A stretch of DNA of 57,565 nucleotides from a virus: positions 1 to 57,565 of the IMG/VR virus record IMGVR_UViG_3300042898_002638; one strand, written 5' to 3'. Of the stretch, positions 38,559-50,950 are shown one piece after another. Numbering within the stretch: position 1 is the stretch's first letter; every line of letters starts with the position of its first letter. The position numbers were made by a program, and so were the translations under genes. Under the pieces are notes generated by a model. That model was given only the letters and a program-made list of their open reading frames with translations. It was not told the origin of the DNA and ran no database searches.

Positions 38559-38566
38559 ATTTTCCT

Positions 38567-38798: not shown

Positions 38799-38872
38799 TG
38801 GAGCGGGGTAACAGAATCGAACTGTCAGCATTAGCTTGGAAGGCTAAGGTATTACCACTATACGAACCCCGC
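38799..38872 (-). tRNA. tRNA-Gly(TCC)
   Basis: CCA encoded. Seven-bp acceptor, T arm with loop TTCGATT, anticodon TCC at 38838-38840 between 5-bp arms TTAGC/GCTAA. Lies downstream of the tRNA-Cys below in transcription order. Confidence 0.9.
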
Positions 38873-38883
38873 ATATACTTGAT

Positions 38884-38953
38884 AGGACGTGACAGGCTCG
38901 AACCTGCATTATACGGATTTGCAATCCGGCGCTCGGCCATTCGTCACACACCT
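38884..38953 (-). tRNA. tRNA-Cys(GCA), degenerate T arm
   Basis: Anticodon GCA at 38920-38922, U73 as usual for Cys. T stem closes on a six-base loop instead of seven, and the acceptor has an A1-C72 mismatch plus two G-U pairs. CCA not encoded. The 5' end touches the stop codon of the CDS at 38952. It may be weakly functional or decaying; a better tRNA-Cys lies at 50951. Confidence 0.65.
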
Positions 38954-39551
38954 ACATTAAATTCTTGTACTTCAAAGAAAATTCTTCTATTGAAGGATTG
39001 GTGGTTTTCAACACTATTGAAAACAAAAATCTATCTGTTTCTACATCATTGACACTGTGAAAAGTTTGAACATCATAACAATGCCAAGTTTTTTCAGGAA
39101 TTATTTCTTTAAAATTAACTGTGAGATCTTTGTAATATCTATTCTCAGCGGCTTCCAAGGTTGGGGTCGATCTACGTTCGTTATAAAAACAAGTTGCAAC
39201 TTGTTGGCCGCCGGTTTTTAAAAGATAGTTAATGGCCAGTTTTCTTTTGCGATCACAGTGTGGCGGAGATGTGCTTTTTTGTCCAACTACATTGCTGATT
39301 CTTCCAGTAATAAAAACAAGTTCTTCGTCGGGAAAAAAATCTTTGTAAATTAAATTTAAATCTTTTGCTAAAGAGTCATCTAATGAAACTGTACCGTATT
39401 CGTGTCCGGCAACCACCAACTCACCACGATGAAAATCGTGTGTCCAAAGACGAGATTGCTCATTTAGCACAGTTGAATAACAAGTTTCGATTAATTTATT
39501 ATAAATTTTGTCTGGAACTTGAGGTAGATTGAGATAAAATACTTTTGCCAT
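38952..39551 (-). CDS. 2OG-Fe(II) oxygenase-like protein (199 aa)
   Basis: 199 residues. STSPPHCDRKRKLAINYLL gives the HxD pair; VQTFHSVNDVETDRFLFSIV gives the distal His and the 2OG-binding Arg. The middle has GGQQVATCFYNERRS. It resembles small hydroxylases acting on proteins. GAGGAG precedes the ATG, and a TCTAAATA late-like octamer (39563-39570) would start transcription just ahead of it. Its stop overlaps the tRNA-Cys gene by two bases. Confidence 0.7.
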   Translation of the reverse strand: MAKVFYLNLPQVPDKIYNKLIETCYSTVLNEQSRLWTHDFHRGELVVAGHEYGTVSLDDSLAKDLNLIYKDFFPDEELVFITGRISNVVGQKSTSPPHCDRKRKLAINYLLKTGGQQVATCFYNERRSTPTLEAAENRYYKDLTVNFKEIIPEKTWHCYDVQTFHSVNDVETDRFLFSIVLKTTNPSIEEFSLKYKNLM

Positions 39552-39573
39552 GGCTACTCCTCTATTTAGAAAT

Positions 39574-39649
39574 TGGTAGGACGTGACGGGCTCGAACCGC
39601 CGACAGCTTCGGTGTAAGCGAAGAACTCTACCAACTGAGTTAACGTCCT
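39574..39649 (-). tRNA. tRNA-Val(TAC)
   Basis: CCA encoded, acceptor AGGACGT/ACGTCCT, T loop TTCGAGC, anticodon TAC at 39614-39616 on a perfect CTTCG/CGAAG stem. Confidence 0.92.
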
Positions 39650-39662
39650 AAAAATTCTTTAC

Positions 39663-39736
39663 TGGTCTCGGTAGCAGGAATCGAACCTACGCTCGAACGT
39701 CCCAAACGTTCAGTGATACCATTTCACCATACCGAG
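39663..39736 (-). tRNA. tRNA-Pro(TGG)
   Basis: CCA encoded, acceptor CTCGGTA/TACCGAG, T loop TTCGATT, anticodon TGG at 39702-39704 on stem GAACG/CGTTC. Confidence 0.92.
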
Positions 39737-39742
39737 AAAAAC

Positions 39743-39895
39743 TTAACTGGGAATTATATGAGGCAAATAAGGAACTGCTCTGGGACCGTGCAGTTGTTGC
39801 AACAACTTACGAGCCTCTTCTGCAGAGTCAGCACCCACACGAGCCTTAAACTCTCGACCGTCGGGTCCTCTAACTGTTGCTTCGTATAATTTCAT
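39743..39895 (-). CDS. Small conserved phage protein (50 aa)
   Basis: 50 residues between tRNA-Thr and tRNA-Pro. Begins MKLYEATVRGPDGREFKARV, then an alpha helix (SAEEARKLLQQLHG), ending YLPHIIPS. Looks like a compact strand-strand-helix domain. I recall near-identical short proteins from marine phages; function unknown. Confidence 0.75.
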   Translation of the reverse strand: MKLYEATVRGPDGREFKARVGADSAEEARKLLQQLHGPRAVPYLPHIIPS

Positions 39896-39910
39896 TTTGT
39901 AACTTTAAAA

Positions 39911-39985
39911 TGGTGCCCAATGTCTGATTCGAACAGACGACCTACCGCTTACAAGGCGGTTGCTCTACCCCTGAGCCAATCGGGC
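39911..39985 (-). tRNA. tRNA-Thr(TGT)
   Basis: CCA encoded, T loop TTCGAAT, anticodon TGT at 39951-39953 on ACCGC/GCGGT. Its 5' end lies two bases after the start site predicted for the late promoter at 39993. Confidence 0.92.
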
Positions 39986-39992
39986 GTGTTTC

Positions 39993-40000
39993 TATTTATA
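39993..40000 (-). promoter_or_regulatory. T4-type late promoter in front of tRNA-Thr
   Basis: TATAAATA on the minus strand between tRNA-Leu and tRNA-Thr; predicted start 39987, two bases before the mature tRNA 5' end. Confidence 0.7.
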
Positions 40001-40003
40001 TCG

Positions 40004-40090
40004 TGGTGCGAGTGGCCGGAATCGAACCGGCACGCCTTTTAAAGCGAGAGATTTTAAGTCTCTTGTGTCTACCTATTTCACCACACTCGC
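40004..40090 (-). tRNA. tRNA-Leu(TAA)
   Basis: CCA encoded, class II with a long variable arm, acceptor GCGAGTG/CACTCGC, T loop TTCGATT, anticodon TAA at 40054-40056 on AGAGA/TCTCT. Confidence 0.92.
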
Positions 40091-40107
40091 ATTTCTAACT
40101 TGTATAT

Positions 40108-40136
40108 ATTATACAATAAATCGAGTTAATTGTCAA
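40108..40136 (-). promoter_or_regulatory. Consensus sigma70 promoter of tRNA cluster
   Basis: Minus strand TTGACA (40131-40136), 17-base spacer, TATAAT (40108-40113); perfect match to both hexamers, about 10-15 bases ahead of tRNA-Leu(TAA). Confidence 0.9.
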
Positions 40137-40146
40137 CCAGAAATGT

Positions 40147-40653
40147 TTAACTGTTTAACACTTTTGCCACTGAATTCATCACTGCGGCAATACGACCAAT
40201 GTCACGAAGTTGTTCTACTGTGTAGCCTTCTTGCTTGAGCGTTTCGTAATGTGCCTTAACACAGAAGTGACACCGGCCAACAATGCTTGCGGCCAAGCTA
40301 AACGCTTCAAAGTTACTCTTAGTAGTTCCACCATGTGACGCAATAGCATTCATGCGTAACTGTGCTGGCAATCCTTTTAGACTAGGATCATCGGCCATTT
40401 CAACAAAAGGATACCACACATTGTTCTGTGCCATGATGCTGGCGGCAGTCATTGCTGACTCTGCGTGTACTGGAGCATCTGCTAACATTACTGATAGGAT
40501 TTTACCGTTGCCGGTTGCAGCCAATGCGGCTACAGCACAACCCATAGCAACATCTGCATCCAGTGTGCTACGGAGCAGTACAGCATCCAGATTTAATTTT
40601 GTGTCCTTGGCGTAATCTGGCAAAGCACCTTTTACTGATTCAATAAAAGCCAT
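40147..40653 (-). CDS. ahpD: AhpD-like alkylhydroperoxidase
   Basis: 168 residues. NFEAFSLAASIVGRCHFCVKAH has the CxxC pair C128 and C131, the upstream Glu (E116) and the downstream His (H135) of the AhpD proton relay. AhpD reduces AhpC by thiol-disulfide exchange. The operon upstream encodes AhpC, so the pair forms a self-contained peroxide-reducing system. One-base overlap with the BI-1 gene. Confidence 0.88.
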   Translation of the reverse strand: MAFIESVKGALPDYAKDTKLNLDAVLLRSTLDADVAMGCAVAALAATGNGKILSVMLADAPVHAESAMTAASIMAQNNVWYPFVEMADDPSLKGLPAQLRMNAIASHGGTTKSNFEAFSLAASIVGRCHFCVKAHYETLKQEGYTVEQLRDIGRIAAVMNSVAKVLNS

Positions 40654-41342
40654 TATTTTCTATCACCAAATAACTGTAACAGATTAATGAACAGGTTGAT
40701 AAAGTCCATATACAAAGTCAATGCTCCACGAATTTCTGCACTGTCACTGGTTTCTACTGAAAGTTCTTCACGAATCTTCTGCGTGTCGTAAGCAGTTAGT
40801 CCAAGGAAGATAATGATAGCCAGTGCGGAGATCACCATCTGCATTACGGTTGAGCCAATAAAGATATTGACAATACTGGCAATAACAATAGCAATCAATC
40901 CTACAAACATAAACTTGCCCATGCTGTCTAAACTTTGTTTGGTAAAGTAGCCATAGCCACTCATAACGCCAAACAAGATGCCTGCACCCATAAATGCTGA
41001 CACAATACTGCCCATGGTAAACACAGCAAAGATTGTGGCAAAACTCAGACCCATAAGCGCCGCAAATCCATGCAAGCATAACTGTGCAGTACCTTTGCTA
41101 GGGTTGTTACCCAGCACATAGCTGACACCAAAGATTGCTGCCAGCGGAGCAAAGATCACAATCCACTTCAGTACACCTGTAAAAAAGAATGCCAGCAACT
41201 CTGGACTAGAGCCCACAAAGTAACTGACCAGCATTGATACTATAACAGCAAGGCTCATATGTCCATACACACGACCCATTGCTGAGTTTATTTCGCTTGC
41301 AGAACGATATGCGATTCCGCCTGTATAACTTGTTCCAAACAT
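40653..41342 (-). CDS. Bax inhibitor-1/YccA family membrane protein
   Basis: 229 residues with about seven hydrophobic spans and the family hallmarks YRSASEINSAMGRVYGHMSL at the N-terminus and LTAYDTQKIREEL near the C-terminus, ending YMDFINLFINLLQLFG. Bacterial members are inner-membrane calcium-leak or protease-modulating proteins. In a phage it might protect the membrane or regulate lysis; that role is inference. It lies between the aldolase and ahpD genes. Confidence 0.9.
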   Translation of the reverse strand: MFGTSYTGGIAYRSASEINSAMGRVYGHMSLAVIVSMLVSYFVGSSPELLAFFFTGVLKWIVIFAPLAAIFGVSYVLGNNPSKGTAQLCLHGFAALMGLSFATIFAVFTMGSIVSAFMGAGILFGVMSGYGYFTKQSLDSMGKFMFVGLIAIVIASIVNIFIGSTVMQMVISALAIIIFLGLTAYDTQKIREELSVETSDSAEIRGALTLYMDFINLFINLLQLFGDRK

Positions 41343-41352
41343 AATTTTCTCC

Positions 41353-41976
41353 TTAAAATTTACCTGATGCTAGTACGATTTGACAAATATGTTCTAATCG
41401 TTCGATGTGTTCAAATGCCCGCCACGGACTGGTGTCAATGGCCACAACACCGTGTCCTCTAATGCCCACAATGTCAAAACCAACAGTGCCATCTTTTCGC
41501 AGCCACAAATTTTCATGACACCGATCAGCAAGTTCTTGGCTGATCGGTGGCACATCGCCTACGTTCTTGGCCACTTTTGTATAGCGACTAAGTTCAGGAA
41601 AGCTGTCAGCAAGACTACTTAGTTCAATACCACGATGCATGGCAGCCACGCAGTAGGTAGGGTGTAGGTGAACTACGACCCTGACATCAGTACTGTGCTG
41701 ACCCATTGCTCGTTGTAGGCCAAAATGTAGGGGAATTTCTCCACTGGGCTTGAGATTAGCACTGATATCAGAGTAAGGCTCTTCTCTCCATGCCAAACTA
41801 CTTACGATCTTGATCTTTTTAAACTGATCGGGTTGCATGGTCTGCTTACGGACGCCACTGGGTGTGATATAAAAGTGATCACGGTCGTGATGACGAATGC
41901 TCACATTGCCATCACGACTGGTAATCCAGTTGCGTCTATATGCTTCAACCAGTGTGTCGCATATAGTTTCTAACAT
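41353..41976 (-). CDS. Class II aldolase/epimerase family protein
   Basis: 207 residues. Zn ligands HLHP (H103, H105) and RGHGVV (H175), catalytic Glu in KPSGEIP (E80), N-terminal TSRDGNVSIR and ITPSGVRK for phosphate. The family includes L-fuculose-phosphate aldolase, ribulose-phosphate epimerase and MtnB dehydratase; motifs do not decide between them. One-base overlap with ahpC and cotranscribed, so possibly linked to stress or sugar metabolism. Confidence 0.85.
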   Translation of the reverse strand: MLETICDTLVEAYRRNWITSRDGNVSIRHHDRDHFYITPSGVRKQTMQPDQFKKIKIVSSLAWREEPYSDISANLKPSGEIPLHFGLQRAMGQHSTDVRVVVHLHPTYCVAAMHRGIELSSLADSFPELSRYTKVAKNVGDVPPISQELADRCHENLWLRKDGTVGFDIVGIRGHGVVAIDTSPWRAFEHIERLEHICQIVLASGKF

Positions 41977-42515
41977 TACAGAGTCTCGCCGCCGACTGTA
42001 CGGTTACAGGCACAGAGTTCGCCAGTTTGTAATGCATCCAATACACGAAGTGTTTCTTCTGGGCTACGACCAACGTTCAAGTTGTTGACAGTAACGTGTT
42101 GGATAACGTTCTCTGGGTCAACAATGAATGTTGCACGTAATGCCGCACCTGCAGGAGCATAGAACACACCTAGTTGTTCAATCAAGCTCAACTCGCCACG
42201 CTGTGTGTCAGCAAACTGGTGATGGGTGATCTTCTTTAGATCTGCGTGTGCTGTTTGCCAAGCAACTTTACAGAACTCATTGTCTGTGCTACCTGTAAGC
42301 AATACAGCATCACGATCAGCAAAGTCTGATGCCAACTTGTCATAGGCCACAATCTCTGTTGGGCATACAAACGTAAAATCTTTTGGATAGTAAACAATTA
42401 CTTTCCATTTGCCAGCAAATGACTCGTCTGTAATTGTATAGAAAGCATCTTCTGGTTGTCCTGGACGGACACCTGTGACTGCGAATGGGGCTAATTTGTC
42501 GCCAACTGTTTTCAT
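41976..42515 (-). CDS. ahpC: AhpC-type peroxiredoxin
   Basis: 179 residues. Peroxidatic Cys in YYPKDFTFVCPTEIVAYDK (C51), resolving Cys in the C-terminal GELCACNRTVGG (C168 or C170). It reduces hydroperoxides and is recycled by AhpD (40147). First gene of the four-gene unit, with AAGGAGATAAC as ribosome site and a short leader containing a hairpin behind a TTGATT-N17-TACAAT promoter. Confidence 0.93.
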   Translation of the reverse strand: MKTVGDKLAPFAVTGVRPGQPEDAFYTITDESFAGKWKVIVYYPKDFTFVCPTEIVAYDKLASDFADRDAVLLTGSTDNEFCKVAWQTAHADLKKITHHQFADTQRGELSLIEQLGVFYAPAGAALRATFIVDPENVIQHVTVNNLNVGRSPEETLRVLDALQTGELCACNRTVGGETL

Positions 42516-42545
42516 GTTATCTCCTTTGTGCTAAATGAAAATGTT

Positions 42546-42563
42546 TGCAGAAGTTTTTCTGCA
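42546..42563 (-). other. Hairpin in ahpC leader
   Basis: TGCAGAA-AAAC-TTCTGCA, a 7-bp stem in the transcribed leader between promoter and ribosome site of ahpC. Confidence 0.6.
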
Positions 42564-42570
42564 TGTGTGT

Positions 42571-42599
42571 ATTGTACAGTTATTTACATGAGAAATCAA
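42571..42599 (-). promoter_or_regulatory. Sigma70 promoter of ahpC operon
   Basis: Minus strand TTGATT (42594-42599), 17-base spacer, TACAAT (42571-42576). Confidence 0.75.
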
Positions 42600-42710
42600 C
42601 CATCTCTAGTGGTTTCTACTGAATATATTTCTATGGCAACAATAGAAAAAATCAATAAAGAAACGGGGTTGGGTGGGTATTTTAAACTAGCTCAAAAGCG
42701 TGGGTGTTGC

Positions 42711-44003
42711 TCATTGAGATCTCAGCAACCGAATCATTTTGCAATAATAATCATAATAATATTTTGTAATCAGACTGGGATCTGCTTTTAATATTTTTTT
42801 CCTCACTGCTCTTAGAAATATGCCACGTGGTTTTTTAATGTGTTGAATTGTATGTGTTAAATTAGTTTTTAATTCTTCAATTACTTGTTGTTGAAATGCA
42901 TCGCTGAAAAAATGTTTTTTGTTAAATTCGGCTATGTGTCTGATTTCTACTAGAAAGTGATCGAACTCCTTGGCATTAAGCAAATTAATTTTATTCATGC
43001 TGTTGATAATTTTTTCAAGTCTTAGTAAACTATCTGTCTCTTGATCATAACTTTCGTCAATCCAAGGAGCAAATGTTCGAAATCCGTAACTTCTAAGATA
43101 CTCTAAACTGTGTGGCCCTGCTGCCAATACAAATGGATGACCACATGCAATTGGTCTCAATATCTTTTCTGTCAAGTGAATTCTTGAGTCGTCAAACATG
43201 GTTTCTAAAACTACACTCATTGCAGTTGAATTAAAATCATCATGATTGTACTGTGCGCTTTCGTTGCTGTCGCATTGATTGTCTTTGAGCAGATCTAATA
43301 CAGTGCTATCTTTGAGCGCAAAATTGACATTTTTAAATTTATGATCATAATAATGATACCCTTGATCACCTTCGGACCTAGCTGATATACTGGTTTTACT
43401 TGATTCATGCAACCCATGTTCAATTAATAACTCCATGAACTTTAATCTGTATTCTCTAGTATTACCCCAGGCGCGATTATATATAAGGAATTTTTCTTGT
43501 ATATGAGATTGCGGAACAAGCCGAGCATCTATTTCAGCAAATCTATACCAGTCACGAGCAATAATTGCATGACACCAATAGTAAACCGGCAAAAAATTAT
43601 CTTGAGAATACTGTTCTAAGTCAACAGAATTTTTTTCAGAATGCAGTAAAATTGCCTGGTCACGTGGCATGCCATATGTCAATGGTATTGCTAATAAATT
43701 TTTATCAACTAATTCCTGAGATCTTATTTCTGTGGCAGTGGAAGTGCCCGACGCCGGGTCGTGCAAATTCTGAATAAAAACATGCAATGATGCTGGATCA
43801 ATATTTGTATACAAATTATAATTCAGTGGTTCTTGGTCGTGGACAACAACTGGAATGTCAACATAATGTCCCCCTATTAGGGGAGTCAGTGGAGTGAGAT
43901 CAAAAATGTTTTTACTGCCATGCGGATAAAATCTATAGATTACTACAGGAACAGGTATAATCGATTGCACCCAGTGGTACAAATAGTCTAAGGGAATGTT
44001 CAT
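42711..44003 (-). CDS. GT10/exostosin-like glycosyltransferase 4
   Basis: 430 residues, the longest of the group. PVVVHDQEPLNYNL (about residue 53) pairs with WMHDQEPC of the 19347 protein. IHLTEKILRPIACGHPFV then LEYLRSYGFRTFAPWIDESYD is the common signature. The C-terminal 60 residues are basic and may touch membrane or RNA. It lies alone between the ahpC operon and the tmRNA; the intergenic 42600-42710 shows no clear gene. Confidence 0.65.
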   Translation of the reverse strand: MNIPLDYLYHWVQSIIPVPVVIYRFYPHGSKNIFDLTPLTPLIGGHYVDIPVVVHDQEPLNYNLYTNIDPASLHVFIQNLHDPASGTSTATEIRSQELVDKNLLAIPLTYGMPRDQAILLHSEKNSVDLEQYSQDNFLPVYYWCHAIIARDWYRFAEIDARLVPQSHIQEKFLIYNRAWGNTREYRLKFMELLIEHGLHESSKTSISARSEGDQGYHYYDHKFKNVNFALKDSTVLDLLKDNQCDSNESAQYNHDDFNSTAMSVVLETMFDDSRIHLTEKILRPIACGHPFVLAAGPHSLEYLRSYGFRTFAPWIDESYDQETDSLLRLEKIINSMNKINLLNAKEFDHFLVEIRHIAEFNKKHFFSDAFQQQVIEELKTNLTHTIQHIKKPRGIFLRAVRKKILKADPSLITKYYYDYYCKMIRLLRSQ

Positions 44004-44030
44004 TCGGGGGAATTGTATTTGTTAATGAAT

Positions 44031-44068
44031 AAAAAGGTAATTTAATTCTGTTACGAGGATAAATTACC
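44031..44068 (-). terminator. Intrinsic terminator of tmRNA
   Basis: Minus strand GGTAATTTA ... TAAATTACC (9-bp stem, arms 44060-44068 and 44036-44044) followed by TTTTTATTC. Confidence 0.8.
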
Positions 44069-44366
44069 AAAAACCCTAGGCGGTGTTTAGACTGCCAATG
44101 CTTCCTTGGCTGAACGAGCAGAGAACTTGACATTCTTGCCTGATACAGTTACGGTTTTGTTTACGTTTGCATTTACGTTTTTTGCGTCTACGACCGGGTC
44201 TCCCCTGTCCTACGGCTTCTGCATTGCCGTGCTGTCCACTTCAATACTTCTGACCCAATCGATAGCCTGGTCACCCCCACCTAAATATACCTTATACACT
44301 TAGGTGGAGGTGGCGGGAGTCGAACCCGCGTCTTGAATCCATTTTTATCGGCTTCATACAGCAATA
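44069..44366 (-). ncRNA. ssrA: Circularly permuted two-piece tmRNA
   Basis: In transcript order the acceptor piece comes first: GACGCGGG, T loop TTCGACT, CCCGC, then CACCTCC-ACC ending at 44303. A 24-base spacer follows, then the coding piece from 44278. Its 5' GGGGGTG pairs over 7 bp with CACCTCC, and TTGGGTC (44252-44258) pairs with GATTCAA (44333-44339) as helix P2. The tag frame resumes at GCA (44185) after GTAGAC and runs 32 codons to TAA (44087), beginning AKNVNANVNK and ending KEALAV. A stalled ribosome would be rescued and the product tagged for proteolysis. Confidence 0.85.
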
Positions 44367-44371
44367 ACACT

Positions 44372-44379
44372 TATTTATA
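44372..44379 (-). promoter_or_regulatory. T4-type late promoter of tmRNA
   Basis: TATAAATA on the minus strand; predicted start 44366, just before the acceptor piece. Confidence 0.75.
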
Positions 44380-44389
44380 ATTGTTAAGT

Positions 44390-44929
44390 TTAGGAGTACC
44401 ACAATTCTGTGGGCTCGGGCTTAAATCTAATAGATAAAATTACTCTTTCATGCTCTTGCGGATTAATCGCATTGTGCGGAACATTGATTTGGACCAACGC
44501 CGGAGTTGTTAACGAACAAGTATGTGTTGGTGGCAACCCATTGGAATCATACATGTCTGTTGTGGCCCCATAGTACCTTCCGGTATTTAGAGTCTCTGTA
44601 TAACTGGCATGTTCCCACCAATTCATAGTTGAATTTTCACATCCAACTATTGGAAGATTTAATGCTAAAAATTTAGGATATTGTTTGTCACCATCAATAT
44701 GAATTGGTAGTTGGTCATTTGGTGCTGTCATAAAAAATCTAGCAATATCCCACACTAAAGAATTTTTTTCAAAGAATTCTTTAAGAGCCGGACAAGCAGA
44801 TAGTACTACATTTGACTCAACCACATACGCACTGGTTTTAATTTCTTTAAATACCTTAGGTAACAACAAAATCAGTTGTTGTTGTATTTCATCAAATTTT
44901 GGGATATTGATAAATTTATATGGAAGCAT
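44390..44929 (-). CDS. 2OG-Fe(II) oxygenase-like protein (179 aa), leaderless
   Basis: 179 residues. LPIHIDGDKQYPKFLALNLPI gives HxD; QINVPHNAINPQEHERVILSIRF gives distal His and Arg. The middle NWWEHASYTETLNTGRYYG is unlike the other oxygenases here. The ATG at 44929 is five bases after TATAAATA, with no Shine-Dalgarno, so a leaderless mRNA is predicted. It lies directly before the tmRNA in the same direction. Confidence 0.7.
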   Translation of the reverse strand: MLPYKFINIPKFDEIQQQLILLLPKVFKEIKTSAYVVESNVVLSACPALKEFFEKNSLVWDIARFFMTAPNDQLPIHIDGDKQYPKFLALNLPIVGCENSTMNWWEHASYTETLNTGRYYGATTDMYDSNGLPPTHTCSLTTPALVQINVPHNAINPQEHERVILSIRFKPEPTELWYS

Positions 44930-44934
44930 ACATT

Positions 44935-44942
44935 TATTTATA
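44935..44942 (-). promoter_or_regulatory. T4-type late promoter, leaderless
   Basis: TATAAATA on the minus strand, five bases before ATG 44929. Confidence 0.8.
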
Positions 44943-44944
44943 AT

Positions 44945-45019
44945 TGGTTGCGGGGGAAGGACTCGAACCTCCGGCTTCCAGGTTATGAGCCTGGCGGTCT
45001 ACCACTGACGTACCCCGCG
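44945..45019 (-). tRNA. Initiator tRNA-fMet(CAT)
   Basis: CCA encoded, anticodon CAT at 44985-44987, and the C1-A72 mismatch that marks bacterial initiators. The anticodon stem has CCAGG/CCTGG rather than the full three G-C pairs. T loop TTCGAGT. Confidence 0.85.
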
Positions 45020-45025
45020 ATAAAT

Positions 45026-45115
45026 TGGCGGAAGCGGTGAGATTCGAACTCACGAGGGACGTTAATCCCTGCTGGGTTAGTAATCCAGTGCCATCGGCCA
45101 CTCGGCCACGCTTCC
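45026..45115 (-). tRNA. tRNA-Ser with unusual anticodon ACT
   Basis: Well-formed class II tRNA: CCA, G73, acceptor GGAAGCG/CGCTTCC, long variable arm, T loop TTCGAAT. The anticodon loop is TTACTAA with ACT at 45079-45081 and an A31-C39 mismatch, where a tRNA-Ser(GCT) would have CTGCTAA. Confidence 0.8.
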
Positions 45116-45125
45116 TATATTTGTA

Positions 45126-45153
45126 ATTATAACAGAAAAAAATTAAAAGTCAA
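45126..45153 (-). promoter_or_regulatory. Sigma70 promoter of tRNA-Ser/fMet
   Basis: Minus strand TTGACT (45148-45153), 16-base T-rich spacer, TATAAT (45126-45131), ending 11 bases before tRNA-Ser. Confidence 0.8.
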
Positions 45154-45160
45154 TGGCTTT

Positions 45161-45661
45161 TTAAAATCTTTCGTTAACTCTGGCTCTATAACTTGCAGTT
45201 GACAATCCTTTAAAACGGTCTGCCGCATAACTGGCAGCAAATGCATTGGGTTTAACTGATGGGGTCACATTGCAAGTGCCTTTGATGTAGCCCACAGCCT
45301 GTGATATCACACAGCTGGATCCGTAACGATCATCTGGATTAATATCCAAATGCACTTCAACATGACGATTTTCTAATACTTCGCCCAATTTCAAATACAG
45401 TTCCGATACTTTGTAAACTTCATTCATTAGACGCATACTAGGACGTGATGTTTTTTGATCAAAGTCTCGTTCGCGGTGCACTTCTCCAAATAGTTTACAG
45501 CCGCTATTACCGTTGATATGCACCACAACTGCCAACACATAATCAGCATACCAAACACCGTTTACACGATGCCGCTCAGAATCGCACCCAAGATAAATCT
45601 TAGTCTCAGGAGTTTGTTCTTCAATGAACTTTTTTACTTTAACAAGATTGATCTTTTCCAT
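45161..45661 (-). CDS. RNase H-like protein (YkuK/DUF458-like)
   Basis: 166 residues. TKIYLGCDSERHRVNGVWYADY is the first strand of an RNase H-like fold with Asp in GCDSE; EVHLDINPDDRYGSS holds more acidic residues; the C-terminal VKPNAFAASYAADRF is typical of the YkuK-type family as I recall. Could be a nuclease or nucleic-acid binding protein. Located between tRNA genes. Confidence 0.7.
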   Translation of the reverse strand: MEKINLVKVKKFIEEQTPETKIYLGCDSERHRVNGVWYADYVLAVVVHINGNSGCKLFGEVHRERDFDQKTSRPSMRLMNEVYKVSELYLKLGEVLENRHVEVHLDINPDDRYGSSCVISQAVGYIKGTCNVTPSVKPNAFAASYAADRFKGLSTASYRARVNERF

Positions 45662-45673
45662 AATGTTCTATGT

Positions 45674-45758
45674 TGGTGGGGATGGAGAGACTCGAACTCT
45701 CACGATTTTACTCGCTGGAACCTAAATCCAGTGCGGCTACCAATTACGCCACATCCCC
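45674..45758 (-). tRNA. tRNA-Leu(TAG)
   Basis: CCA encoded, class II variable arm, acceptor GGGGATG/CATCCCC, anticodon TAG at 45722-45724 on CTGGA/TCCAG. Confidence 0.92.
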
Positions 45759-45765
45759 TTTTAAT

Positions 45766-45841
45766 TGGCTCCCCAACGTGGGCTCGAACCACGGACCAAC
45801 AGATTAACAGTCTGCTACTCTACCGACTGAGCTATTGGGGA
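45766..45841 (-). tRNA. tRNA-Asn(GTT)
   Basis: CCA encoded, G73, acceptor TCCCCAA/TTGGGGA, T loop TTCGAGC, anticodon GTT at 45806-45808. Confidence 0.92.
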
Positions 45842-45847
45842 ATAATC

Positions 45848-46003
45848 TTACTTGCGTTCTTTAGACGAGAATGACGCAGGTGTTGCCTGTGCGTCAATCA
45901 TGGCTCTTTTAAATCCGTTGCGATCGTGTTGATCTTTAAACTTTAACAATGCCATCAATGTTTTTGTACGTTTGCTGAGTTTGAATGCTGATGTTGTTTT
46001 CAT
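45848..46003 (-). CDS. Small basic phage protein (51 aa)
   Basis: 51 residues starting MKTTSAFKLSKRTKTLMALL, then FKDQHDRNGFKRAMIDAQ. Basic, helical. AAAGGAAAC precedes the ATG. The FKRAMIDAQ segment recalls short proteins in T4-like marine phages. Function unknown. Confidence 0.7.
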   Translation of the reverse strand: MKTTSAFKLSKRTKTLMALLKFKDQHDRNGFKRAMIDAQATPASFSSKERK

Positions 46004-46041
46004 TTGTTTCCTTTGGGGTATTTATTTGGGTAAAATTGTGA

Positions 46042-46049
46042 TATAAATA
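46042..46049 (+). promoter_or_regulatory. T4-type late promoter, leaderless
   Basis: TATAAATA on the + strand, five bases before the ATG at 46055. Confidence 0.8.
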
Positions 46050-46054
46050 TCTGT

Positions 46055-46240
46055 ATGCAAACGCAAACACAAGATTTTATTTCAGTTAGTGGACATCTAC
46101 AAGTGCATCTGTCACTTAGTGAGTATAACACATCTTATATTTTTGTCAATGATATTTTCAATGATCGGCTAATTATGCGTTACTTTAGTGATCACGAAAC
46201 TGCAGTCAATTGGATCAAGACTCTTAAAGATCACTATTGA
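46055..46240 (+). CDS. Small hypothetical protein (61 aa), leaderless
   Basis: 61 residues: FISVSGHLQVHLSLSEYN, then IFNDRLIMRYFSDHETAVNW; a small alpha/beta protein without known motif. No Shine-Dalgarno; TATAAATA sits exactly five bases before the ATG. It runs against the flanking tRNA genes. Confidence 0.75.
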   Translation: MQTQTQDFISVSGHLQVHLSLSEYNTSYIFVNDIFNDRLIMRYFSDHETAVNWIKTLKDHY

Positions 46241-46248
46241 TCACATGC

Positions 46249-46324
46249 TGGGGAGAAGTATGGGAATCGAACCCATATTAACGGAATCACAATCCGTGGT
46301 GTTGACCTTTACACTAACTACTCC
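46249..46324 (-). tRNA. tRNA-His(GTG)
   Basis: CCA encoded; C73 with an encoded G at position -1, the His identity pair; anticodon GTG at 46288-46290 on ACGGA/TCCGT. One U-U mismatch in the acceptor. Confidence 0.9.
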
Positions 46325-46330
46325 ATAATA

Positions 46331-46405
46331 TGGTCTCGCCTGCAAGAATCGAACTCACATTCAAGAGGTAGAAGCTCTTTGTATTATCCATTATACTAAG
46401 GCGAG
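46331..46405 (-). tRNA. tRNA-Arg(TCT)
   Basis: CCA encoded, acceptor CTCGCCT/AGGCGAG, anticodon TCT at 46370-46372 on AAGAG/CTCTT. T stem has two G-U pairs. Confidence 0.9.
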
Positions 46406-46408
46406 AAC

Positions 46409-46485
46409 TGGCAAAAGGGTACAAGAATTGAACTCTGATAGACTGGTTAACAGCCAGCTACTTTGGCCGTTAATTTATGCCCCTT
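46409..46485 (-). tRNA. tRNA-Asn(GTT)-like, probably degenerate
   Basis: CCA and G73 present and anticodon GTT at 46449-46451 on a good stem, but the T stem keeps only about three pairs and the acceptor has a C-C mismatch and G-U pairs. T loop TTCAATT. An intact tRNA-Asn lies at 45766, so this is likely a decaying copy. Confidence 0.5.
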
Positions 46486-46510
46486 AAAATTAATTGTTAA
46501 ATAACAGATC

Positions 46511-47314
46511 ATGAGTGACTGGCGTCAATTTTATCAAGCAGTAAGAGATCCTTTGTGGCCTGACTGTGCCACTGAAGATTCTTATCCGCTTCTACCTGAT
46601 TTCATACGCCAGGAATGCGAAACCGTACATGGTTATGTACCAGGTAGTTTCAAGCATGCCGCCCGCCCACCGCAGTTAGTGCATCCAATCAGCCAAGTAC
46701 CTGAATCTATACTGAATGCGGCCATAGCCGAAATAGACAACATAGATTGGACGCAGCCACAAATAGATTCATATATCAGAACTTACCAAAAAGTTGAATC
46801 TCGTGGCGTTACTGACACTACTCCACCAAACCGCCGGCATTTTATAAATCAAAACCTACCAATTTTTCTGCGCACTTACAAAGAAGCATTAACTGATAAT
46901 AATATAACTGACTGGCTAGATTATCACAAAAATATTGACTCGGTGGACACTGAATGGCAAGCGAAACTGCCCGATGTGACCAAACTTTTACACTGGGTAC
47001 AACAAAAAATGAATGCCCAGGCCACCGGTAACAGTGTTTTAAACTGCATGCTACCAGGTGGCAGTATTATTCCACATACTGACTCAGGTCGTTATTTTAC
47101 CACCTACTGTAGATTTCACATACCACTGCAAACCAACAGTCAGGTAATTTTTTCTGGGGCATCTGACATTCAAGAACACATGCCTTTAGGTTGGCTGTAT
47201 AGATTCAATAATCGAATGCTACATCAAGTCCAAAATCAAGGAACAACTAATCGTGTGCATTTGGTTGTTGATCTGTTGTTGGATCAACCCAACAGCATTG
47301 TTGATATCACCTGA
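46511..47314 (+). CDS. 2OG-Fe(II) oxygenase-like (Asp/Asn hydroxylase type)
   Basis: 267 residues. GGSIIPHTDSGRYFTTYCRF gives HxD, RMLHQVQNQGTTNRVHLVVD gives distal His and Arg, with the conserved strands of aspartyl/asparaginyl beta-hydroxylases between (FHIPLQTNSQVIF). The N-terminal half has no known domain. It is one of four oxygenase-like genes here with an intact HxD..H..R set. A GTTAAATA late-like octamer lies seven bases before the ATG. Confidence 0.78.
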   Translation: MSDWRQFYQAVRDPLWPDCATEDSYPLLPDFIRQECETVHGYVPGSFKHAARPPQLVHPISQVPESILNAAIAEIDNIDWTQPQIDSYIRTYQKVESRGVTDTTPPNRRHFINQNLPIFLRTYKEALTDNNITDWLDYHKNIDSVDTEWQAKLPDVTKLLHWVQQKMNAQATGNSVLNCMLPGGSIIPHTDSGRYFTTYCRFHIPLQTNSQVIFSGASDIQEHMPLGWLYRFNNRMLHQVQNQGTTNRVHLVVDLLLDQPNSIVDIT

Positions 47315-47364
47315 GAGATTCTAACTCACGACCTTATTTAGGCCAAGAATACGCTTCAGAGCTA
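47308..47364 (-). pseudogene. tRNA remnant (Ala-like), truncated
   Basis: A T arm with loop TTAGAAT and an anticodon-arm-like hairpin whose loop TTGGCCT would give GGC. The D arm is collapsed and no acceptor partner exists, because the 5' side runs into the 3' end of tRNA-Gln. Best read as the 3' half of a lost tRNA. Confidence 0.35.
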
Positions 47365-47442
47365 TGGCAGAGGGTACTGGATTCGAACCAGTGATCATGG
47401 AGTCAAAGTCCAATGCTTTAGGCCAAACTAAGCTAACCCCCA
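47365..47442 (-). tRNA. tRNA-Gln(TTG)
   Basis: CCA encoded, T loop TTCGAAT, anticodon TTG at 47404-47406; weak 1-72 pair (U-U), tolerable because tRNA-Gln has a weak first pair. Confidence 0.88.
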
Positions 47443-47453
47443 GTAATAATTGT

Positions 47454-47527
47454 TGGAGCGGGATAGGAGAATCGAACTCCTGACTAAACCTTGGCAAGGT
47501 TTCGTTTGACCATTAAACTAATCCCGC
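47454..47527 (-). tRNA. tRNA-Gly(GCC)
   Basis: CCA encoded, acceptor GCGGGAT/ATCCCGC, anticodon GCC at 47493-47495 on AAACC/GGTTT. Confidence 0.93.
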
Positions 47528-47530
47528 ATG

Positions 47531-47605
47531 TGGTGGTGATGAGTAGAATCGAACTACCACTGGACTCCGTATGAAGGAGGCGCACTACCGTTATGCTACA
47601 TCACC
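47531..47605 (-). tRNA. tRNA-Met(CAT), elongator type
   Basis: CCA encoded, acceptor GGTGATG/CATCACC fully paired (so not an initiator), anticodon CAT at 47571-47573. It could be an Ile2 tRNA if C34 is lysidinylated; sequence alone does not decide. Confidence 0.85.
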
Positions 47606-47607
47606 AA

Positions 47608-48342
47608 TCAGTCGAAGTAGTATTCAAGATCAGATAATCCGGCCACGTTAGAATAATCTAAGCCGTGTATGTAAGACTCGCGACGCAAGTCATTTCCGGG
47701 CACCAAGTCTCGGCGAATGTGTGTTAATTCCATACATCCAAAAACGCCATCAGTGTCATAGCCCACGTGATTGTTGCCGTGTACGTGTACAATGGCATAG
47801 TGCTCTTGCCACCGTTCTACAGCCTGGTGCCATTGTTTGCTACGATTGGCACAGTTGTGCCATTCCATTGCAACGCCTACAATGCGATCGCGATGTTGTA
47901 CGATGCTTTCAATCAAACTGTATTCACCACCTTCGATGTCCATCTTGATGAACACCTGGTCTACACCCATTCTGTCTAGTGCTCGTGCAAAGTTTTCTGG
48001 CCCAATAAACTCTGGCCAATGTTTTACGTTACCTTGAAAGAATTCATCGTACATGGCTCGAATATCCAAGTGTCCACGAACAGGTGTGTTGATGCTGATA
48101 CGCATGGTATCTCTGGTAACACTGGCGTCATACATCTGAATTGGATCCTGGGGCTTGAGATCATGCCAGTCTTGGTCAAATGTAAAATCGTCACCTAGAC
48201 CAAAACTCAGCAGGCCCTGTGCTTGTTCCACTGCTGAACGTGGCACAATGTAGCCGCCATCCATTTTTCCACCTAATCTAATTAGGTCAGGCACTGCAAC
48301 GGGGCAGAGCCAATGTAGTTCTTGGGGTAGTTTAATTTTCAT
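47608..48342 (-). CDS. FkbM-family methyltransferase
   Basis: 244 residues. GLLSFGLGDDFTFDQDW begins the SAM-binding Rossmann part, QVFIKMDIEGGEYSLIESI is the FkbM hallmark, and VAMEWHNCANR follows. FkbM proteins O-methylate sugars and related hydroxyls, so it may finish the glycan. Its product SAH is the substrate of AhcY (37272). The ATG at 48342 is five bases after AATAAATA, the leaderless late pattern. Confidence 0.9.
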   Translation of the reverse strand: MKIKLPQELHWLCPVAVPDLIRLGGKMDGGYIVPRSAVEQAQGLLSFGLGDDFTFDQDWHDLKPQDPIQMYDASVTRDTMRISINTPVRGHLDIRAMYDEFFQGNVKHWPEFIGPENFARALDRMGVDQVFIKMDIEGGEYSLIESIVQHRDRIVGVAMEWHNCANRSKQWHQAVERWQEHYAIVHVHGNNHVGYDTDGVFGCMELTHIRRDLVPGNDLRRESYIHGLDYSNVAGLSDLEYYFD

Positions 48343-48347
48343 AATTT

Positions 48348-48355
48348 TATTTATT
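48348..48355 (-). promoter_or_regulatory. Late-promoter-like AATAAATA, leaderless
   Basis: Seven of eight matches to TATAAATA, five bases before ATG 48342 on the minus strand. Confidence 0.6.
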
Positions 48356-48370
48356 GACTGGTTTTACACA

Positions 48371-48463
48371 CCATATAAAAGCACACTATATGCGCCCTGG
48401 TTGTCAAGCGCCACTAACAGCCTGCAACCACGCAGGGTAGCCGTGTAATGTGCTTTTATATGG
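48371..48463 (-). ncRNA. Structured RNA closed by a 15-bp stem
   Basis: Perfect 15-bp terminal helix (arms 48449-48463 and 48371-48385). The first arm begins with the CCA of tRNA-Lys. Inside is a hairpin CCTGC-GTGGTT-GCAGG. About 93 bases, lying between tRNA-Lys and the FkbM gene. No coding potential. Confidence 0.6.
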
Positions 48464-48534
48464 TAGGGGTGCAGGGGAACGATCCCTGTTTTACGGATTA
48501 AAAGTCCGTTACTTCACCTTAAAGTTTCACCCCC
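48461..48534 (-). tRNA. tRNA-Lys(TTT) with variant T loop
   Basis: CCA encoded, T stem CAGGG/CCCTG, anticodon TTT at 48500-48502 on ACGGA/TCCGT. The T loop is ATCGTTC instead of TTCGANN: position 54 is A and 58 is U. Confidence 0.85.
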
Positions 48535-48657
48535 TAATGGTTCTTGTTTTTGTGCTCGTCGCAACGCCTTGTTGGTCTTGCGATGCGCACCTGCTTTGCG
48601 AAATAGTGCAAGACGAACGAAGCAGTTACGTTCGCGCACGATCGGTTTACGTGTCAT
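48514..48657 (-). CDS. Small basic phage protein (47 aa)
   Basis: 47 residues from ATG 48657 with AAGGA seven bases upstream. Starts MTRKPIVRERNCFVRLALFR, then KAGAHRKTNKALRRAQKQE; highly basic, like a small nucleic-acid-binding protein. Its last codons overlap the 5' part of tRNA-Lys by 21 bases. Confidence 0.65.
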   Translation of the reverse strand: MTRKPIVRERNCFVRLALFRKAGAHRKTNKALRRAQKQEPLGGETLR

Positions 48658-48676
48658 ACAATTTCCTTTTATAAAA

Positions 48677-48752
48677 TGGTGGAGGAGACAGGGATCGAAC
48701 CTGCGACCTATTGCTTGCAAAGCAACCGCTCTCCCAACTGAGCTACACCCCC
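48677..48752 (-). tRNA. tRNA-Ala(TGC)
   Basis: CCA encoded, T loop TTCGATC, anticodon TGC at 48717-48719 on ATTGC/GCAAC; one U-U mismatch in the acceptor. Confidence 0.9.
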
Positions 48753-48764
48753 AAATGCTCTGCA

Positions 48765-48955
48765 TCCCCCGGCGGTAATTATAGAGTATCAAGATATGAC
48801 GCTATCATACCCATCACACACTCCTTCCACCCGCTTCCCGACAGGGACCGTTCTCGCATTGCCAGCGGCCTTTAGGTTTAAAGACTACCACCCGTAGTTG
48901 TCACACTACTTCTCATCCTGCGGGTCACAGTATCCGGAGACACCCGGAACGTTCA
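48765..48955 (-). ncRNA. Structured GC-rich RNA between tRNA-Tyr and tRNA-Ala
   Basis: About 190 bases with no ORF. In transcript order: TCCGG..CCGGA hairpin, a closing helix ACCCGC/GCGGGT, hairpins GTAGT-GTGACA-ACTAC, CTTTA-AACC-TAAAG, GGCCG..CGGTC and TCCC-TGTC-GGGA, then TATGA-TAGCG-TCATA. Markedly more GC-rich than surrounding intergenic DNA. Family not recognised. Confidence 0.55.
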
Positions 48956-48956
48956 T

Positions 48957-49041
48957 TGGTGGAGATGATAGGGATCGAACCTATTGTGACCGAAGTCGGA
49001 AGATTTACAGTCTCCTGCCATACCATTACGGCGGCATCTCC
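48957..49041 (-). tRNA. tRNA-Tyr(GTA)
   Basis: CCA encoded, class II variable arm, acceptor GGAGATG/CATCTCC, anticodon GTA at 49006-49008. Confidence 0.92.
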
Positions 49042-49046
49042 ATGTC

Positions 49047-49121
49047 TGGTACTCGATAGCGGAGTCGAACCGCTCTTGCCTGGATGAAAACCAGATGTCC
49101 TAACCGATAGACGAATCGAGC
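49047..49121 (-). tRNA. tRNA-Glu(TTC)
   Basis: CCA encoded, T loop TTCGACT, anticodon TTC at 49086-49088. Confidence 0.92.
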
Positions 49122-49129
49122 AAAAAGAG

Positions 49130-49194
49130 GAGAGCCACGGTTGCAGGACCTAGTGTCTCGTTGCCGAGAGAAGTGTCCAGGCGATGTGGCTCTC
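49130..49194 (-). ncRNA. 65-base structured RNA between tRNA-Asp and tRNA-Glu
   Basis: Terminal 9-bp stem GAGAGCCAC/GTGGCTCTC, inner stem GGAC/GTCC, and apical hairpin TCTC-GGCAAC-GAGA. Followed on the minus strand by CTCTTTTTG, a terminator-like T run. Not tRNA-shaped (no T loop). Confidence 0.6.
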
Positions 49195-49200
49195 AAAACT

Positions 49201-49275
49201 TGGCGGTCTGTGGGGGAATCGAACCCCCGTAAGTGGATAGACAATCCACAGTAATAACCTCTATACGAACAGACC
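49201..49275 (-). tRNA. tRNA-Asp(GTC)
   Basis: CCA encoded, G73, acceptor GGTCTGT/ACAGACC, anticodon GTC at 49240-49242 on GTGGA/TCCAC. Confidence 0.93.
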
Positions 49276-49283
49276 AAAATCTA

Positions 49284-49498
49284 CTATTTTAAAACATACT
49301 AAAGGAACCATTGTGCATCTATGTCTACCTATAGGACCGTCTCCTATAGACCTGCACGGTCATTACTGCCTACATGCTCCGCCGCTTTTCTGGACATTTC
49401 TGCCCGGTTTCATGGACCTAGCTTGAGCGTGGGCGGCCCCACAGTCCTCGCCTTAGATCCCTAACGGTGTAGGTAACCTTTAATACGTTTTAAAATAG
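49284..49498 (-). ncRNA. 215-base structured RNA closed by a 22-bp stem
   Basis: Arms 49477-49498 and 49284-49305 pair over 22 positions, with only two G-U pairs. The interior (about 170 bases) is GC-rich with hairpins such as GACGGTCC-type CCTATAG repeats (TCTATAGGAGACGGTCCTATAGG) and GGGGCC/GGCCCC-like complementarity. No ORF. Lies directly downstream of two sigma70 promoters and upstream of tRNA-Asp. Confidence 0.65.
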
Positions 49499-49567
49499 CA
49501 ACCCTTACGGGTTACCAAAAACAACAACTTTTTAAAGAACGTCTAGTTAATTTCCTAACTAGTCTCT

Positions 49568-49596
49568 AGTATAACACAATGGCTATATCTAGTCAA
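49568..49596 (-). promoter_or_regulatory. Sigma70 promoter P2 of RNA array
   Basis: Minus strand TTGACT (49591-49596), 17-base spacer, TATACT (49568-49573). A palindrome CCCTACA-CTG-TGTAGGG lies 15 bases upstream of the -35. Confidence 0.85.
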
Positions 49597-49611
49597 TTTG
49601 TTTTGCAAAGT

Positions 49612-49628
49612 CCCTACACTGTGTAGGG
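49612..49628. promoter_or_regulatory. Palindrome upstream of P2 (possible operator)
   Basis: CCCTACA/TGTAGGG with a three-base centre. Confidence 0.5.
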
Positions 49629-49665
49629 TTATTTGCAGATCCAGCTAATTTCTTAACTTGTTTCT

Positions 49666-49694
49666 ATTGTAGCAAAATGGCGTTTAATTGTCAA
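49666..49694 (-). promoter_or_regulatory. Sigma70 promoter P1 of RNA array
   Basis: Minus strand TTGACA (49689-49694), 17-base spacer, TACAAT (49666-49671). A palindrome CCCTAC-N5-GTAGGG lies 17 bases upstream of the -35. Confidence 0.85.
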
Positions 49695-49711
49695 CTTAGT
49701 ACTTTAGTATA

Positions 49712-49728
49712 CCCTACGCACTGTAGGG
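49712..49728. promoter_or_regulatory. Palindrome upstream of P1 (possible operator)
   Basis: CCCTAC/GTAGGG with a five-base centre, same geometry as the one near P2. Confidence 0.5.
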
Positions 49729-49735
49729 TTATTAT

Positions 49736-49809
49736 TGGCGTACCTCCAAGGACTCGAACCTTGACTGACGGTTTTGGAGACCGCGGTGCTGCCATTACAC
49801 CAGAGATAC
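49736..49809 (-). tRNA. tRNA-Trp(CCA)
   Basis: 3' CCA encoded, G73, T loop TTCGAGT, anticodon CCA at 49775-49777 on ACGGT/ACCGC. Confidence 0.92.
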
Positions 49810-49816
49810 ATTAAAT

Positions 49817-49890
49817 TGGTAGCCTGTCAAGGTAACGATCCTCGGTCGCTCGATTATCAGTCGAGTGCTCTACCTTTGAGCTAACGGGCT
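49817..49890 (-). tRNA. tRNA-Ile(GAT) with variant T loop
   Basis: CCA encoded, anticodon GAT at 49856-49858 on CTCGA/TCGAG. T loop ATCGTTA with A54 and U58, as in tRNA-Lys here. One C-A mismatch in the acceptor. Confidence 0.85.
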
Positions 49891-49895
49891 ATGAT

Positions 49896-49970
49896 TGGCG
49901 GGTCCTGCAGGAATCGAACCCACACCGCTTGGTTCGAAGCCAAGCATGATATCCATTTCACCAAGGACCC
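49896..49970 (-). tRNA. tRNA-Arg(TCG)
   Basis: CCA encoded, acceptor GGGTCCT/AGGACCC, anticodon TCG at 49935-49937 on CTTGG/CCAAG. Confidence 0.93.
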
Positions 49971-49975
49971 TTAAC

Positions 49976-50065
49976 TGGCGGTGCGACTCGGACTCGAACC
50001 GAGAACCCAGATTACGCCGAGCGACAGATTAGCAATCTGCTCTAATACCATTATAGGACCGCACC
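49976..50065 (-). tRNA. tRNA-Ser(GCT)
   Basis: CCA encoded, G73, long variable arm, anticodon GCT at 50031-50033 on ACAGA/TCTGC. Same codon box as the ACT tRNA at 45026. Confidence 0.92.
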
Positions 50066-50069
50066 ATGT

Positions 50070-50161
50070 TGGCGGAAGACGGAGGAGTCGAACCCCATCC
50101 CTGTTAAGGGAACCTGGTTTTCAAGGCCAGTCGCAGGACCAGCCCCGCTGCATCATCTTCC
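50070..50161 (-). tRNA. tRNA-Ser(TGA)
   Basis: CCA encoded, G73, long variable arm with TCCCTGTTAAGGGA hairpin, anticodon TGA at 50121-50123; C31-A39 and one T-stem mismatch. Confidence 0.87.
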
Positions 50162-50170
50162 TAAAATTTG

Positions 50171-50932
50171 TTAAAGATTTTTAAAAACTTTTTTTATAAT
50201 TGCACTGCGATCCAGTTTGGAACTGGCACCCAGCACAACGACCACATACTGTTGTTTGTTGTGTTCTACCAGCATGGCCACACACCATCCAGCAAGATTG
50301 GTAAATCCAGTCTTGCTCACGTCTACACGGTCAAACTCTGCCAACAGTGGACGGGATGTGTGAACTAGATTCACAGAGCTGCCGCCTATTTTGTCAAGTT
50401 TTTTCAACAGCACAGTTGACTGCCCACTGGCTTCTTGTATAAACCAATAGCTGGCAGCAATCTGTACCATTTCTACTAGATCCCGTGCAGTGGTCACATT
50501 GAACACACCTAGCCCCGAAGGATCTACAAATTTAGTATCTCGAAGATCCCACATTCTAGCATGCCGATTCATCTCAGCTACAAAGGCAGATCGGCCGCCA
50601 GGATAGTTCTGTGCAATGGTTTCGGCTGCTCCGTTGTCACTGCTGACCAGCATGGCCAACAACAACTGTTCTCTGGTGTATCTGCCAGGCGGCAATCGAC
50701 TGCCGGTGTTTTTTCTCAGCACCAACTGCTGTTGAAGATCTCTGTTGTGATCCAATGCAACCATGGCAGTCATCAACTTGGTCACACTGGCCATTGATCT
50801 GATTTGATCACTATTTTGGCTCAGTTCCGTGCGCTGTGCATTGATGTTGTAGACCAACACAGTGGGCTCACGTGCGTGGGCCGCCGCATTGGATAAGACT
50901 GTACAAAAAAACACTGTGGCAAATAGTTTCAT
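50171..50932 (-). CDS. D-alanyl-D-alanine carboxypeptidase (S11 family)
   Basis: 253 residues. Signal peptide (MKLFATVFFCTVLSNAAAHA). Penicillin-binding motifs SVTK (S49, K52), SDN in VSSDNGA (98-100) and KTG (207-209 in DVSKTGF). Acts in the periplasm on peptidoglycan stem peptides. No C-terminal amphipathic anchor domain as in DacA, so it is a minimal soluble form. A phage might use it to remodel peptidoglycan during lysis or exclusion; that is inference. It sits inside the tRNA array. Confidence 0.92.
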   Translation of the reverse strand: MKLFATVFFCTVLSNAAAHAREPTVLVYNINAQRTELSQNSDQIRSMASVTKLMTAMVALDHNRDLQQQLVLRKNTGSRLPPGRYTREQLLLAMLVSSDNGAAETIAQNYPGGRSAFVAEMNRHARMWDLRDTKFVDPSGLGVFNVTTARDLVEMVQIAASYWFIQEASGQSTVLLKKLDKIGGSSVNLVHTSRPLLAEFDRVDVSKTGFTNLAGWCVAMLVEHNKQQYVVVVLGASSKLDRSAIIKKVFKNL

Positions 50933-50950
50933 ATCTTTATTTTGTAAAAT

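Follow-up and report, generated by a model that had tools for sequence, protein, structure and literature searches.

Here we report that a large, freshwater-type jumbo phage carries a circularly permuted tmRNA gene whose tag belongs to a family of long phage tags ending in Ala-Val. The gene lies on a 57,565-nucleotide stretch of viral DNA that was analysed whole and is called the window below (IMG/VR record IMGVR_UViG_3300042898_002638, positions 1 to 57,565). What is new is this tag family, together with its possible pairing with phage ClpX, and not the tmRNA gene itself, which is a member of a known family. We are almost certain that the RNA, taken alone, is a functional phage permuted tmRNA. 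For the locus as a whole we favour, with a little less than even confidence, the reading that this RNA rescues ribosomes with host SmpB and adds a -LAV tag most likely meant for the phage's own ClpXP.

An Infernal search with tmRNA models, as the sequence-only reading had suggested, matched positions 44363-44087 on the minus strand to RF04321 (Rfam tmRNA_permuted) over the full model length, with 99.1 bits against a gathering threshold of 47 (cmscan, E 4e-18). This match, covariation and orthologues in related records bear out the original claim of a circularly permuted tmRNA on a phage contig. RF04321 matches above the cut-off were found in 42 of 48 related viral records; since this set is non-random and partly picked by the tag (3 of the 42), the count shows that the gene is common and gives no rate. 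For covariation we used 76 distinct relatives with parsable acceptor and coding pieces. The G3-U70 pair is kept in all 76 and in the window despite a varying acceptor stem (GGGGGTG/CACCTCC, GGGCCTG/CAGGTCC, GGGGATG/CATCTCC, GGGCCAT/ATGGTCC and others), the acceptors in these relatives having been chosen partly by pairing. The P2 columns played no part in selection, and over 32 distinct haplotypes a mean of 6.2 of the 7 P2 pairs form, against 4.2 +/- 0.2 with shuffled partners; none of 5000 shuffles reached the observed pairing. Both sides of P2 change together among relatives; in a minority group the helix is bulged or shifted. In an alignment of close relatives, differing P2 haplotypes and differing PK1-like modules occur on the same tag, which indicates that the tmRNA gene recombines in pieces with its pairing kept. 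That the locus is a captured, decaying or chance tmRNA-like sequence is extremely improbable: ARAGORN does miss the window copy, though it calls the orthologues, but covariation, the full-model match, the conserved tag and the widespread orthologues contradict this explanation.

The acceptor stem GGGGGTG/CACCTCC, the P2 helix TTGGGTC/GATTCAA and the 24-base spacer described earlier were all located, and every element below is on the minus strand. The acceptor piece (44303..44363), delimited by the covariance match and element mapping, comprises the 5' outer-stem strand UGCUGU (44363-44358), the P2 5' strand GATTCAA (44339-44333), the T arm GCGGGTTCGACTCCCGC (44329-44313), the acceptor 3' strand CACCTCC (44312-44306) and the trinucleotide ACC (44305-44303), that is, A73 and two C, the full CCA not being encoded. 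A 24-nt intervening spacer (44302-44279) follows, whose removal by tRNA-processing enzymes would be expected from the behaviour of the family. The coding piece (44087..44278), supported in addition by covariation, contains the acceptor 5' strand GGGGGTG with G3-U70 (44278-44272), a D-like loop, the P2 3' strand TTGGGTC (44258-44252), the outer-stem strand ACAGCA, a PK1-like hairpin (44230-44212) and the resume codon GCA (44170-44168), which opens the tag reading frame of 27 codons plus TAA (ANVNKTVTVSGKNVKFSARSAKEALAV, 44087..44170; stop TAA at 44089-44087). The tmRNA sits inside a minus-strand cluster of 24 tRNA genes called by ARAGORN (38799..51025). A weak additional tRNA (46414-46484, 33 bits) was seen with Rfam only and has no ARAGORN call.

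Upstream of the acceptor piece lies the element TATAAATA (44372..44379, minus strand), a putative promoter. Conservation among close relatives starts at this element (ATAAATAAG(T/A)G), so that a promoter or transcript start is likely here; distant relatives carry, by eye, sigma-70-like TTGACA/TATACT boxes at the same position. Downstream, inspection revealed a low-GC 8-bp inverted repeat, GGTAATTT/AAATTACC (44068-44061/44043-44036), then TTTTTATT (TTTTTATTC); this minus-strand element (44027..44068) is a probable terminator and was not called by a generic terminator scan. The gene had been credited with its own promoter and terminator and hence with late viral transcription. The sequences are indeed present, but the late timing is unsupported: TATAAATA occurs 9 times in the window against 2.8 expected, a count inflated by two overlapping pairs, and 100 kb of contig G001, the closest relative, contain only 5 copies. 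The reading of TATAAATA as a late promoter of the T4 type was set aside, as neither the G001 count nor the boxes of the distant relatives support it.

The tag had been read as 32 residues long. That frame would start at an upstream GCA (44185) which is absent from several relatives, whereas the downstream GCA (44170), in the context TAAAT-GC, is present in nearly all of them, even those with 10-codon host-like tags such as ANDSQFALAA. Because the downstream GCA is shared with orthologues and the upstream one is unconserved, we assign the window tag 27 codons; among tags in the tmRNA database, a length of 10 is the commonest (PMC11915505). The ALAV end was correctly read, and the -AV end is conserved across the tag family, so that the window tag has Ala-Val in place of the C-terminal Ala-Ala of the ssrA degron. 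Related phages have three kinds of tag, namely host-like tags of 10-13 codons, which end mostly in AA, tags of 23-31 codons resembling ANADTFDFSAMSFTGNTVSGKSKVALAA, and the kind found in the window. The second, long class (ANADTFDFSAMSFTGNTVSGKSKVALAA and kin, 23-31 codons; L024, L040, L043 and others) keeps the -AA end. One 353-kb genome with a tag of this type (G004) encodes ClpA-like and ClpP proteins, and a ClpX zinc-finger match was looked for there and not found. Two further contigs (L436, L437) have a permuted tmRNA with an apparently non-GCA resume region (TAAAC-GAC) and a long tag ending -VLA; the ClpX of these phages has N199, I202 and KKH.

We scanned the 2.9 million viral contigs of IMG/VR with a degenerate pattern for V(S/T)GKNxKF(S/T)A from which the C-terminal end of the tag was excluded. 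The scan returned 74 contigs, with all 74 tags in a tmRNA context; since it returned tags only, we discarded the idea that the tag was captured from another phage protein. The -AV end is present in 73 of the 74, the remaining one (L309) ending -ALAA. The 33 distinct tags of 29 codons differ widely at residues 22-26, yet each has L or F at residue 27 and AV at residues 28-29. The conservation of residues 10-19 partly reflects data selection, as the scan pattern fixes them. The final codon is GTT in 32 of these tags and GTC in one, which made an attempt at dN/dS uninformative. The long -AV family had no match among 50,697 sequenced phage records, and an exact-pattern scan of genomes from 84,980 species of bacteria and archaea did not find the tag DNA of the window's clade. 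Such conservation bears on the proposal that the tmRNA acts mainly on host functions, for instance by competing for SmpB or by gauging stalled ribosomes to time lysis. A precedent exists in the tag-less tmRNA-like RNA of phage DS6A, whose expression in E. coli inhibits the host tmRNA, according to work cited in PMC11915505; a role of this sort would not require an intact, conserved reading frame, and we consider it very unlikely here.

The window is colinear, in reversed orientation, with contig G001 (346,856 bp), 49.7 of its 57.6 kb aligning at a mean identity of 87.7%, and the G001 tag differs from the window tag by a single conservative substitution (I for V). The Rnh-like exonuclease of the window has its nearest relatives in PA5oct-like and Erwinia jumbo phages, at ∼50% identity. 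A hint of a betaproteobacterial backbone comes from one relative, whose tmRNA exceeds the beta_tmRNA cut-off. We also sought the host through bacterial genomes. The sole genome contig matching a host-like phage tag (L129, CAIMDH010000093.1) is a 3-kb contig in a small-genome MAG, and only 2 of 60 genomes of the order of that MAG, itself included, have a permuted tmRNA above the cut-off; as the order mostly lacks one, this contig is probably a misbinned phage contig and was set aside. The window further contains a run of genes for a peroxiredoxin (AhpC/TSA), a CMD/AhpD-like protein, a class II aldolase and a Bax-inhibitor-1 family protein (40147-42515), the peroxiredoxin being at least 89% identical in at least 80 viral contigs, more conservation than is usual in an auxiliary gene. 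A large modification pathway is suggested by several radical-SAM-domain proteins together with a Nol-like carbamoyltransferase (4621-17215), and a fatty acid desaturase, an S-adenosylhomocysteine hydrolase and ThyX are encoded at 32551-33282, 37272-38573 and 25885-26577, respectively.

Four relatives of 317-347 kb with -AV tags encode ClpX, ClpA and ClpP (G001, and G063, G108 and G198 of 317-344 kb). The 57,565-nt window fragment itself has no clpX, clpA or clpP, and the source phage probably carries these genes, judging from the colinear G001. The G001 ClpX exceeds both NCBIfam ClpX cut-offs (509.6 against 359; 472.7 against 370.75), matches at equivalog level and has the zinc-finger domain, the GYVG pore-1 loop and the IGF loop; its RKH loop reads RKT. 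The G001 ClpP, at 251.4, is just above a subfamily cut-off of 249 yet below TIGR00493, and keeps the catalytic Ser, His and Asp. The same contig encodes a ClpA-like ATPase, at 782 bits under the ClpA cut-off of 993, and a second ClpP-like protein. No SmpB was detected in 12 records by profile search, nor in three further genomes by tblastn with the E. coli query, a weak test; since no phage SmpB was found, host SmpB must serve.

This gene content weighs against the explanation that the phage gains rescue but little proteolysis: host proteases would read the -AV end and long conserved body poorly, so that ribosomes are freed and tagged proteins live longer or retain a function. Mutation of the C-terminal alanine raises the KM of E. 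coli ClpXP (PMC7652416), and the body EVTVSGKNVKFSAR is conserved beyond the needs of a mere degron, its motif being partly fixed by the search pattern; both would be expected on this explanation. The presence of ClpX, ClpA and ClpP in four -AV genomes, with an intact IGF loop in the ClpX of G001 and intact catalytic residues in its ClpP, would not, and we regard this explanation as unlikely.

For the E. coli ssrA tag AANDENYALAA, the C-terminal dipeptide is read by the pore-2 and RKH loops of ClpX: contacts to the Ala-Ala end come from T199 in the first of these loops and from R228 and H230 in the second, and KM is strongly raised by H230A or T199A and mildly by T199S (PMC7652416). The ClpX of the phages with Ala-Val tags keeps Y153, V154 and R228 of the E. 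coli protein, but H230 is replaced and T199 is often S or A. We compared tag and ClpX encoded on single contigs, in 5 -AV genomes and 12 -AA or -VA genomes, omitting G209 (RKH region unalignable) and G214 and G215 (ambiguous tag start, end -LA, KKH). Residues 199/230 are S/T in G001, T/V in G063, A/S in G108, S/Q in G198 and S/T in G200, so that residue 230 is non-His in all five -AV genomes; it is His in 10 of the 12 others (G078, G083, G008, G043, G090, G091, G092, G093, G236 and G243) and Asn in the remaining two (G094 and G100), an association with Fisher p 0.0034, uncorrected for relatedness. A tree of 79 ClpX proteins places the five -AV genomes together in a single clade of 33 rows (support 100/99; H at site 230 in one row and N in two), which adjoins RKH clades with -AA tags. 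Given this single clade, we count a single co-transition, which common descent alone could explain. The loss of H230 and the switch to -AV thus appear to coincide once on the tree, which fits co-evolution as a correlation rather than as proof. With the single RKH member omitted from the count, site 230 is the 9th most variable of 340 in the nearest part of the clade, where Y153, V154, R228 and D201 are invariant. We counted two observations against the pairing: other phages of this ClpX clade, outside the compared pairs, also lack His230, and L309 belongs to the tag family with an ALAA end.

A rival explanation is an ordinary phage tmRNA: host ClpXP, ClpAP or Lon would tolerate the -AV end and degrade the tagged proteins, and the changes in ClpX would serve other phage substrates and have nothing to do with the tag. 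Permuted phage tmRNAs are widespread (PMC9004378), tag end and ClpX are linked by one phylogenetic switch only, and B. thuringiensis still degrades -AAV tags, with a GFP half-life of ∼15 min and cells brighter than with -LAA (PMC5732988), so a changed tag end need not mean a private route. We nevertheless think this explanation somewhat unlikely, because 73 of 74 contigs share a fixed [L/F]AV amid varying neighbour residues, and all 12 -AA/-VA pairs, but none of the 5 -AV pairs, have H or N at residue 230. The evidence suggests instead a private phage tagging-and-degradation route. The earlier proposal that host proteases read the tag differently is plausible and is strengthened by the phage ClpX; phage ClpXP would then read the -AV end, and host ClpXP would do so less well.

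Under our favoured reading, cleavage of the precursor would yield an acceptor piece and a coding piece, joined by the acceptor stem and P2, and the two-piece RNA would be charged with alanine through G3-U70. The charged tmRNA would use host SmpB to enter stalled ribosomes and add a phage-specific tag, the charged Ala plus 27 encoded residues ending -LAV. Spacer cleavage, CCA addition, alanylation and SmpB-dependent rescue are expected here by analogy with the tmRNA family, and we infer that the tmRNA is expressed, processed, charged and used for tagging. The tag would most likely send unfinished proteins to phage ClpXP, perhaps with help from ClpA, and the tag-reading pocket of phage ClpX, changed together with the tag end, would make the route partly separate from that of the host.

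The window gene shares with the RF04321 tmRNAs of Alpha- and Betaproteobacteria and Cyanobacteria the permuted order, the G3-U70 acceptor stem, T arm, P2, spacer, resume GCA and tag frame, and differs in being phage-borne and in its 27-codon tag ending -AV. Several components are already known: two-piece phage ssrA (PMC9004378), tmRNA and SmpB in huge phages (PMC7162821) and a jumbo phage that encodes both tmRNA and clpX (PMC11242549). The suspicion that some marine phages carry ssrA proved right (PMC9004378, a survey in which 53 of 133 distinct phage tmRNA structures were two-piece candidates). The two-piece ssrA described there, from Melnitz and other aquatic phages, is likewise permuted, but has a different tag; a glnA riboswitch is absent from the Rfam gathering-threshold matches in our window, and the survey, in the sections at hand, draws no link between ssrA and phage ClpX. 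Two cultured phages, Stenotrophomonas phage Marzo (Menderavirus) and Alcaligenes phage vB_Af_QDWS595, match RF04321 at 119 and 111 bits and both lie outside the long tag family, the tag of the latter being ANDNVYAAAA (10 aa). The Sinorhizobium jumbo phage AP-J-162 (PMC11242549), a large phage like ours, has a tmRNA, clpX and other Clp ORFs; the huge phages of PMC7162821 share the tmRNA but also have SmpB, which we did not find in our records. Neither report, in the sections at hand, compares the tag with the ClpX recognition loop. Our search of open-licence full text, which cannot exclude such a paper, found none tying a phage tag to a phage ClpX.

Phage tmRNAs have been catalogued for years with no demonstrated purpose. 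A phage-only tag with a non-bacterial end, together with the phage's own ClpX, ClpA and ClpP and an altered contact residue, provides a hypothesis that purified proteins can test. In its fullest form, which we put forward tentatively and hold to be possible but doubtful, a jumbo-phage lineage has an orthogonal tag-and-destroy system in which a long -AV tag and a ClpX pocket rebuilt to match it at residues 199 and 230 direct tagged proteins to phage rather than host ClpXP, a natural co-evolved degron-unfoldase pair. If true, such a natural orthogonal degron system would be of use wherever protein degradation is to be controlled, and it would add a new layer to host takeover.
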